A stretch of 33,834 nucleotides of DNA from a virus. Where the stretch lies: IMG/VR virus record IMGVR_UViG_3300021960_000276, positions 1 through 33,834 of that record; one strand, 5' to 3'. Each line of letters opens with the position of its first letter. The first letter of the stretch is position 1. Position numbers and translations under genes: made by a program. The notes under the pieces are model-generated. The model searched no databases and had not been told where the DNA came from. It was given only the letters and a program-made list of their open reading frames with translations. This document shows, one piece after another, positions 631 through 27,193 of the stretch.

Positions 631-725
631 AAGTGTACCGGGGTCATCCGGTGTATCTGACAGTCCCGGCTGACGACATGCAGACAGATGCACCCTAAAT
701 TAACTCGCATGTGAGGATTCTCAAA
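631..725 (+). promoter_or_regulatory. Structured 5' leader of the small virion gene operon
   Basis: This non-coding stretch separates the HNH gene from the first small virion gene. GTGTATCTG (651-659) can pair with CAGATGCAC (685-693), a nine-pair stem with one G-U. The intervening loop holds TCCCGG (664-669), which can pair with CCGGGG (638-643) as a pseudoknot. An alternative hairpin ACCGG (637-641) / CCGGT (648-652) would compete with it. Just before the start codon, TGAG-GATT-CTCA (712-723) forms a mini-hairpin holding the GAGG ribosome site. Together these suggest a cis-acting RNA that controls translation or RNA stability. I see no convincing promoter here. The folding was done by eye, without energies. 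Confidence 0.5.
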
Positions 726-2541: not shown

Positions 2542-2880
2542 ATGGCGCATGCAACGGGTAAATACTCATACGCCCTTTGTGATTATTGCGGGCAGCGCTA
2601 CCCTTACCAGACTCTTAAAAAGAACTGGAAAGGGTTTATGGTTTGTCCAGAGGACTATGAGCCAAAAGAGCCCCAGCTAGACCCGTTAAAGTATAGAGGC
2701 GATGCGATTGCACTACAGAACCCACGCCCAGATAGAACTGAACCAATGACGGTTATTGTAGACAACATGGGAGGAGATACCCCATTTGTTACAGTGACAG
2801 GTTCTATGCAACCCGCCCCCGCGGCAGTATCAGTTGAGGGCGTAGGCACAATAGGCACTGTAACGGTTGTTATATCATGA
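2542..2880 (+). CDS. Zinc-ribbon-like small virion protein
   Basis: The N-terminus has CDYCGQRYPYQTLKKNWKGF followed by VCPEDYEPKEPQL: Cys13, Cys16 and Cys35 are potential zinc ligands, with Asp38 in the place of a fourth Cys. The C-terminal half (from about residue 68) is Val/Thr-rich and looks like a beta-domain. The same type of protein is common in phage morphogenesis clusters next to adaptor genes. Its job is not known to me; a structural metal site in a neck or capsid-associated protein is likely. The gene ends with ATGA overlap to the next gene. Confidence 0.7.
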   Translation: MAHATGKYSYALCDYCGQRYPYQTLKKNWKGFMVCPEDYEPKEPQLDPLKYRGDAIALQNPRPDRTEPMTVIVDNMGGDTPFVTVTGSMQPAPAAVSVEGVGTIGTVTVVIS

Positions 2881-3536
2881 CATACGATGAGCTAGTCACA
2901 AATATAAGAAATTACACTGAGGTTGACAGCAACGTCTTTTCAAACAGTGTAATTGATACTTTTATCACGATGGCTGAAAACAAAATACTTCGTGATATAG
3001 ACCTTGACGTCTTTAAAAAAGAAGTCAGCGGTTCTATGGCCACATCTAACAGGTTTTTAACTGCACCCACTGATTTATTGACCCATCGTTATTTGATGAT
3101 TACTGATTCAGCGGGCGATCAAATATTTTTAGAGTTTAGGGATACTTCTTTTATGAAGGAGTATTGGCCGGACAGTGCTTCCACTGGAACCCCTAAATAT
3201 TATTCCGTTTGGGACCAAGACACATTTTATGTGGCCCCTACGCCTGACGATACATATACAGTTCAATTAGGATATATCTATCGACCAGCCCAACTCTCGT
3301 CGAGTAATACGACCACATGGATAAGCAATAACGCCCCAGAAGCACTTCTATATGCGTGTTTAATTCAAGCCTACAGCTACACTAAGGGGCCGACTGATAT
3401 GCTTCAGTATTTCACACAGAGCTATCAGCAGGCGGTCCAAGGGCTTGGCCTAGAGCAGCAGGGTCGTAGACGACGAGATGAATATAGAGATGGCATGATA
3501 AGATTGCCTATACGTTCGGAATCACCGGGGCCTTAA
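2877..3536 (+). CDS. Second head-tail adaptor-like protein
   Basis: This 219-residue protein starts with MTYDELVTNIRNYTEVDSNVF, then a helical segment IDTFITMAENKILRDIDLDVF. The middle is beta-rich (YYSVWDQDTFYVAPTPDDTYTVQLGYIYR) and the C-terminal part helical (APEALLYACLIQAYSYTKGPTDMLQ), ending in an Arg-rich tail. It has the layout of the gene product at 1875 and is a likely paralogue. I infer a neck or adaptor component that links the portal to the tail. It overlaps the upstream stop by four bases (ATGA), which implies coupled translation and a fixed ratio of the two proteins. Confidence 0.65.
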   Translation: MTYDELVTNIRNYTEVDSNVFSNSVIDTFITMAENKILRDIDLDVFKKEVSGSMATSNRFLTAPTDLLTHRYLMITDSAGDQIFLEFRDTSFMKEYWPDSASTGTPKYYSVWDQDTFYVAPTPDDTYTVQLGYIYRPAQLSSSNTTTWISNNAPEALLYACLIQAYSYTKGPTDMLQYFTQSYQQAVQGLGLEQQGRRRRDEYRDGMIRLPIRSESPGP

Positions 3537-26770: not shown

Positions 26771-27110
26771 AGTCTATTTGATTATCCGTCAAGTGCTTAT
26801 CAACAGCCTCTTTGGTAAGTAAAGGATGTTGGGCGTCAGAAAAGTCATAACTTATCTTGCCTTTAAGGTCCGCTCTTACTTTCTTAAACCACTTATCTAT
26901 TACTTTTCCTTCTTTGTACATCGGCGTCATGCTATTAATTTCTCTTTCGGGTAATACCCTCGCCAGTGGAATAAATGAATTCTCCATACCGTTTAATCCG
27001 ACGACCATAGTTGTATTGCCGTCAGAATCTTTGGCTAACGCAATGGATAGCTCCTCGTTTCGCTCTAGCATCACAACTTTTTCAAAGGCTTTTTGCATAA
27101 AAGTCTTCAT
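26769..27110 (-). CDS. Small early protein of unknown function
   Basis: The 113-residue protein begins MKTFMQKAFEKVVMLERNEE, then LSIALAKDSDGNTTMVVGLN and GMENSFIPLARVLP, and ends with a charged helical part (KWFKKVRADLKGKISYDFSD). No known domain. It has a good ribosome site (AGGAG, read on the - strand) and its own promoter at 27165-27193, so it is expressed independently of the upstream nuclease. Because it is small and lies by the replication genes, a host-takeover or regulatory role is possible, but nothing in the sequence proves it. Confidence 0.75.
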   Translation of the reverse strand: MKTFMQKAFEKVVMLERNEELSIALAKDSDGNTTMVVGLNGMENSFIPLARVLPEREINSMTPMYKEGKVIDKWFKKVRADLKGKISYDFSDAQHPLLTKEAVDKHLTDNQID

Positions 27111-27140
27111 TACTTTCTCCTGTATTGATTTTTAAAGAAC

Positions 27141-27159
27141 TGCCATCTCTCAGATGACA
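27141..27159. promoter_or_regulatory. Operator-like imperfect palindrome
   Basis: CATCT-CTC-AGATG (27144-27156) is a perfect dyad, extended outward by TG and CA after one mismatch per side. It lies at the predicted start of transcription of the small - strand gene (-10 at 27165-27170). Either a regulator binds here or a small hairpin forms at the 5' end of the mRNA. Confidence 0.4.
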
Positions 27160-27164
27160 AAGTC

Positions 27165-27193
27165 ATTATACCACACTTTACTACTAAGTGCAA
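27165..27193 (-). promoter_or_regulatory. Extended -10 sigma70-type promoter
   Basis: On the - strand the -35 box is TTGCAC (27188-27193, a partial match to TTGACA), the spacer is 17 bases, and the -10 box is a perfect TATAAT (27165-27170) preceded by TGG, which gives an extended -10 element. It would start near 27158 and drive the 113-residue protein gene. It lies just after the end of the PD-(D/E)XK nuclease gene. Confidence 0.8.

Follow-up and report, generated by a model that had tools for sequence, protein, structure and literature searches.

The RNA leader at positions 631-725 of a 33,834-base virus record (the whole stretch analysed, hereafter the window) folds into a structure with two pseudoknots that recurs in at least hundreds of water-dwelling phages, as found by pattern scans of IMG/VR and in loci fetched by their gene. 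The analysis directly showed the fold and its position, a one-to-one association with one partner gene, and a Shine-Dalgarno sequence (SD) and/or start codon lying in or against the fold. The element is rather likely to be a cis-acting translational operator that forms the 5′ untranslated region (UTR) of genes encoding a capsid cement (decoration) protein or arm-bearing proteins related to it, with the folded RNA as the off state. A short form is already known as an orphan RNA (RF03012), and the larger form seen in the window is new to Rfam.

Leader Family and Its Common Plan

In the window, the leader sits between an HNH-type endonuclease gene (68-595) and a 71-aa open reading frame (ORF) starting at 726. 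A protein search with the 71-aa product as the query provided 80 phage loci, whose leaders differ in sequence and share one common plan. A stem, P1, stands directly before GAC[A/U]G and directly after AGAC; a hairpin, P2, is closed by CAG/CUG, flipped to CUG/CAG in some leaders, and its loop pairs upstream; and the strand immediately 5′ of the SD is the partner of the segment that follows C[U/A]GACG. IMG/VR was also scanned with patterns for the RNA, ignoring the gene, and the resulting numbers are lower bounds. Letters of a search pattern are invariant by construction within that pattern's subset of leaders; P1, the 5′ strand of PK1 and the 3′ strand of P3 were absent from the patterns, except for one P1 base in one pattern. 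For covariation, 86 leaders, each under about 88% alike, were aligned with MAFFT on sequence only. Two covariance models, R1 and R2, were built, and some gene-fetched loci supplied rows, so that counts obtained with them say where the RNA is present and do not test the models independently. The parts of the leader in the window are as follows.

622-628, + strand: putative −10 region (TAATAT at 623-628), weak in the window itself
638-643, + strand: 5′ strand of PK1, CCGGGG; pairs with 664-669 and covaries
650-659, + strand: 5′ strand of P1, GGTGTATCTG; 10 pairs with 685-694
661-663, + strand: 5′ strand of P2, CAG; pairs with 670-672
664-669, + strand: loop of P2, being the 3′ strand of PK1, TCCCGG; pairing present, with covariation
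670-672, + strand: 3′ strand of P2, CTG; covariation
673-675, + strand: conserved unpaired core A-C-G in the 86-leader alignment, partly fixed by the search patterns
676-681, + strand: 5′ strand of P3 (second pseudoknot), ACATGC; pairs with 707-712, with compensatory versions in relatives
682-684, + strand: conserved unpaired core A-G-A (alignment)
685-694, + strand: 3′ strand of P1, CAGATGCACC; pairs with 650-659 and covaries
707-712, + strand: 3′ strand of P3, GCATGT; directly 5′ of the SD
713-716, + strand: SD, GAGG (sequence)
726-941, + strand: gene proposed to be controlled, a 71-aa short member of the MANTTFSGPV... family (arm and short C-terminal part)

Covariation and Conservation of the Fold

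Because the single-sequence folding energy of the leader is unremarkable (z −0.27, with 75 of 200 shuffles folding as well), only comparison can tell its fold from chance. Across the 86 leaders, 90.1% of the P1, P2 and PK1 cells are paired, versus 66.0% after shuffling and 36-41% with slid partners, and the two-sided changes number 351 versus 139 in shuffled alignments (0 of 500 shuffles reached the true value), with 50 further pair types. RNAalifold recovers P1 and P2 unaided. Two-sided changes were found at all nine P1 pairs counted in this alignment, and the middle pair of P2 is A-U in 49 sequences and U-A in 37; in phage DSL-LC04, U-A takes the place of the G-C that closes P1. When partners were swapped among leaders of one group (A or B, described below), the helix length of P1, PK1 and P3 fell below the true value in every trial. 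P3 occurs in a dozen or so compensatory versions, including ACATGC:GCATGT, GTATAG:CTATAC, CTATAG:CTATAG, GTAGTAG:CTACTAC, GTTGTAG:CTACAAC, CATACA:TGTATG, CTAATGC:GCATTAG and TTGCAT:ATGCAA.

The original prediction had proposed a nine-pair stem (651-659 with 685-693), which is present with 10 pairs (650-659 with 685-694), including the closing G-C, and covaries strongly. The pseudoknot that it drew between the loop and the upstream strand (638-643 with 664-669) lies exactly there and covaries, both in the joint alignment of P1, P2 and PK1 and against swapped partners. It had also stressed interlocking alternatives, and these are not conserved. The competing 5′ hairpin (637-641 with 648-652) can form, but its pairing is barely above that of swapped partners in group A and not above it in group B, and it was rejected as a conserved switch. 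The mini-hairpin at the SD can likewise form (712-715 with 720-723), but only 2 of 62 group A leaders have it, and it was rejected as a conserved part. Two helices had been missed, P2 (661-663 with 670-672) and P3 (676-681 with 707-712), the latter abutting the SD; this second pseudoknot is the element most likely to matter for translation.

Compensatory changes were looked for in homologues and are abundant in P1, P2, PK1 and P3. The leader is also far better conserved than nearby third codon positions, with an identity to the window, versus that of third codon positions of the neighbouring genes, of 0.98 versus 0.84 in L042, 0.91 versus 0.51 in L012, 0.91 versus 0.45 in L180 and 0.89 versus 0.42 in L014. 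The idea of a structured leader, which a lack of compensatory change or poor conservation relative to third codon positions would have undermined, therefore stands. A blastn search of the window leader against named phages returned chance matches only. A candidate second copy on the minus strand of the window (27108-27171) was rejected; it scored 16 bits, and the promoter and SD parts of R2 match it but the core does not.

Position in the 5′ UTR and Restriction to Phages

Regarding position, the RNA ends at the start codon in all 80 gene-fetched loci (68 by R1 and 12 by R2). In a second gene-fetched set, whose contigs partly overlap those of the first, 77 of 80 loci have the RNA by R1 or R2, and the remaining three carry a divergent version, type E by inspection. 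Among the matches listed from the pattern scans, 313 of 329 RNAs precede an arm-type gene, and all but one of the others listed precede visible relatives of it. The RNA fills the 5′ UTR, and about two thirds of relatives have a −10 box ahead of the first helix. In 86 of 130 group A, 71 of 103 group B and 66 of 113 group D leaders, a hexamer resembling TATAAT stands 5-11 nt (mostly 7-9) upstream of this helix, versus 1.5, 5.8 and 4.5, respectively, in control windows. Since this spacing holds though the D leaders are far shorter, the promoter follows the 5′ end of the RNA and not the gene. The window's own promoter gave no sigma-70 match and is weak by consensus.

The Rfam type of the short form, "sRNA", and its name, Mu-gpT-DE, would make the element a trans-acting sRNA, a 3′ element of the capsid gene or a ribozyme. 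The name, which we take to mean downstream element of a Mu gpT-like gene, fits a place after the capsid gene, and in the cultured relatives HTVC023P, HTVC027P, CRP-901 and DSL-LC04 the RNA and the arm gene do come shortly after the major capsid gene (in HTVC027P, two small genes lie between). However, the RNA also ends at a start codon in these relatives, in most relatives a terminator-like T-tract and a −10 box lie between the RNA and the gene before it, and the 3′ end of the RNA consists of the SD and start codon of the next gene, even in the Rfam model, which ends in SD and AUG and thus describes a cis element of the 5′ UTR. In the window, the leader ends at the start codon of the next gene and the HNH gene is directly upstream, the left end being the contig edge with no capsid gene in it. 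A downstream or trans-acting RNA is therefore very improbable. Hammerhead, HDV-like and other known ribozymes were rejected, as their strand order differs by eye and Rfam gave no match.

A 16-mer of the core gave 85 matches in 257 Gb from 84,980 bacterial and archaeal genomes, of which about 80 are chance, and host-encoded copies were rejected; the four real copies all stand before the same gene type, in metagenome bins. This distribution bears on a riboswitch-like sensor, in which the conserved core would bind a small molecule of the infected cell and time the synthesis of virion proteins. A compact pseudoknotted fold with an invariant unpaired core beside the ribosome site would suit such a sensor, and marine phages carry known riboswitches (PMC9004378). 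However, metabolite riboswitches normally occur in hosts too and precede several genes of one pathway, whereas this RNA was found in phages only and before one gene type only, the four real genome copies included. A sensor of this kind is thus improbable.

Subtypes and Their Routes to the Ribosome Site

The leaders can be categorized into several types. Group A is the type of the window, group B has a CUAG loop with P2 flipped, and both have PK1; type C resembles B with a CCUAG loop (e.g., L002 and L024). In groups A and B, the 3′ strand of P3 runs right up to the SD, with a gap of 0 nt in 62 of 100 leaders. In some B leaders, such as L315, L317 and L304, a further hairpin (GGU-CUAUAU-GACC and variants) carries this strand in its loop, and P3 is then a kissing contact just before the SD.

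The short leaders of group D reach the ribosome site in another way. The SD is part of their P1, CCU(U)/(A)AGG, in which two of the three pairs counted show two-sided changes. Their P3 strand, UAGCCA, lies opposite AUGGCUA at the start codon. As codons are constrained, ordinary covariation is unfit for this P3 and the choice of codon 2 was used instead. In group D, Ala at codon 2 is GCU in 102 of 107 genes (95%) versus 37% of Ala codons elsewhere in the same ORFs (p 4e-36, a nominal value that counts related sequences and is not phylogenetically independent), and no such bias was seen in group A (35% versus 43%) or B (31% versus 38%). Type E, read by eye, comprises the cultured pelagiphage HTVC027P together with L581, L603 and L606; its PK1 is CUAUAC:GUAUAG or CUGUA:UACAG, and its P3, CCUAG:CUAGG, contains the SD. 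The ribosome site is thus reached by different strands in different subtypes, along three routes (D, E and A/B). As befits a translational operator, it lies inside the conserved fold in D and E and against it in A and B.

The same anatomy allows a leader for mRNA stability or high expression to be weighed, in which a 5′ end locked by PK1 would resist 5′-dependent decay and a helix would keep the ribosome site open. The structure begins at the predicted 5′ end of the transcript in A, B and D, and the SD is unpaired directly after P3 in A and B, as such a leader would have it. In D and E, on the contrary, the SD is inside the fold, and in D the start codon as well, which is the opposite of an open site, and the invariant unpaired core is not needed for stability. 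We regard this explanation as unlikely, and translational control remains the preferred reading. As the SD in A and B, including the window, is unpaired and abuts P3, the off state is less certain there than in D and E.

Relationship to Rfam Family RF03012

In Rfam 15, neither the window nor the leader has a match at the gathering score, and none was found at E up to 10; no match to any Rfam family was obtained for types A, B, C and E. Group D is RF03012, in that L385, L364, L425, L532, L411 and CRP-901 score 52-72 bits versus a gathering score of 49, and the two have the same place, partner gene and P1/P2 core, GAC[A/U]G..C[U/A]GAC..AGAC. This agrees with the resemblance to bases near the capsid genes of marine phages that the original prediction mentioned. 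The window has this core as GACAG...CUGAC...GAC, with P1 closed by G-C, at 659-685, and the alignments show it as well. Types A, B and C differ from RF03012 in a longer P1, a 5′ strand that forms PK1 and a P3 partner just before the SD; in type E, the SD itself is taken up by P3. The literature searched contained no description of the larger types, and a paper that mentions Mu-gpT-DE notes differing database structures (PMC7657543). The orphan RNA thereby gains a gene partner and a corrected address, the 5′ UTR rather than that of a downstream sRNA. It is also joined by larger pseudoknotted relatives that Rfam lacks, and its function can be framed as a concrete hypothesis.

Partner Gene as a Candidate Capsid Cement Gene

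The products of the partner genes start with MAxTTFSGPVxSxNGF, having about 16 N-terminal residues in common. BLAST sorted their bodies into 30 clusters, and the majority of the larger clusters occur with more than one RNA type; judging from these sequences, bodies are exchanged between RNA types, and arm and RNA stay together. L442 and L496 share one leader, which precedes a different arm-bearing body in each; their bins were assigned to different bacteria, and the pattern possibly reflects recent body swapping or the binning of one phage group.

The assignment as a cement protein comes from a relative, L093, the protein of the window being a short member of 71 aa. The AlphaFold model of the L093 body (mean pLDDT 78.9, residues 1-30 unstructured) matches KHP30 (Z 13.1), the Pam1 capsid chain H (Z 12.7), KHP40 (Z 11.9) and GP4 (Z 10.4), and also a baseplate chain of phage R4C (Z 12.2). 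In DSL-LC04, the arm gene is annotated as "cement protein". The cement protein of Pam1 has an elongated N-terminal loop that contacts the E-loop of the capsid protein (PMC9698820). In view of this contact and the matches of the L093 model, the conserved arm is probably a capsid-docking arm. It is poor in basic residues and came out disordered in the model, which does not point to an RNA-binding domain. The section on phage gene timing in the published HTVC027P transcriptome does not mention the arm gene, gp62.

Proposed Mechanism and Comparison with Known Systems

Transcription would start at or just before the first helix, PK1 would lock the 5′ end of the RNA to the P2 loop, and P3 would anchor the internal loop between P1 and P2 at the ribosome-site strand. 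In this folded state the RNA may hinder loading of the 30S subunit and lower translation, and the invariant unpaired core, GA...ACG...AGA, may bind a trans-acting factor. The likeliest factor would be a virion protein, either unassembled cement protein or capsid protein, by which the supply of cement would be matched to capsid demand. A virion protein is preferred as the source of such feedback: the one partner that never varies is probably a capsid-binding protein, and it has to be supplied in a constant ratio to the capsid protein. As the arm has so few basic residues, direct binding by the arm alone is disfavoured, making the capsid protein or another phage factor possible. More tentatively, yet as a real possibility, these leaders may represent widespread double-pseudoknot translational switches in dsDNA phages, with several architectures, that couple cement synthesis to assembly and form a unit with the docking arm while the body is swapped.

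Several known systems offer parallels. The leader pseudoknot of T4 gene 32 is reported to be an autogenous operator for the translation of an abundant dsDNA-phage protein (PMC535899, PMC3014915). It resembles the present RNA as a pseudoknot in a dsDNA-phage leader, homology not being expected; its product is an ssDNA-binding protein, which is a nucleic-acid binder, whereas the product here is a candidate capsid cement protein. In the coat-protein operators of ssRNA phages and the leaders of ribosomal proteins, an assembly component in excess represses its own translation. The logic proposed here would be the same by analogy, whereas the fold, the phages and the protein differ. To our knowledge, regulatory RNAs that set the level of structural proteins are classic in RNA phages and little known in dsDNA phages. 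The manA and wcaG RNAs of marine cyanophages are structured and lie in potential 5′ UTRs (PMC2864571). They precede genes of host metabolism, whereas the leader RNA described here precedes a virion gene and matches neither Rfam family. The original proposal of a structured regulatory leader before a virion gene is supported, regulation as such being suggested by the anatomy. The hypothesis is testable because marine phage groups that are abundant carry the RNA, among them SAR11 and Roseobacter phages in culture. The covariance models can moreover serve to find cement genes, for which a sequence search is defeated by the variability of the bodies.

Neighbouring Genes in the Window

The gene at 68-595, HNH/endonuclease VII-like, is inserted between an upstream terminator-like hairpin and the leader. 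An HNH gene upstream of the leader also occurs in L042 and is absent from the near relatives L005 and L007; it is possible that the window gene is a homing endonuclease. The same gene has a match (E 2.4e-8) among the PHROGs, to one described as a decoy of host sigma70. Further downstream, the genes at 1875-2540 and 2877-3536 both match the SU10 adaptor family PF24175, and an unlisted 49-aa lysine-rich ORF lies at 1559-1708 among the small virion-region genes.
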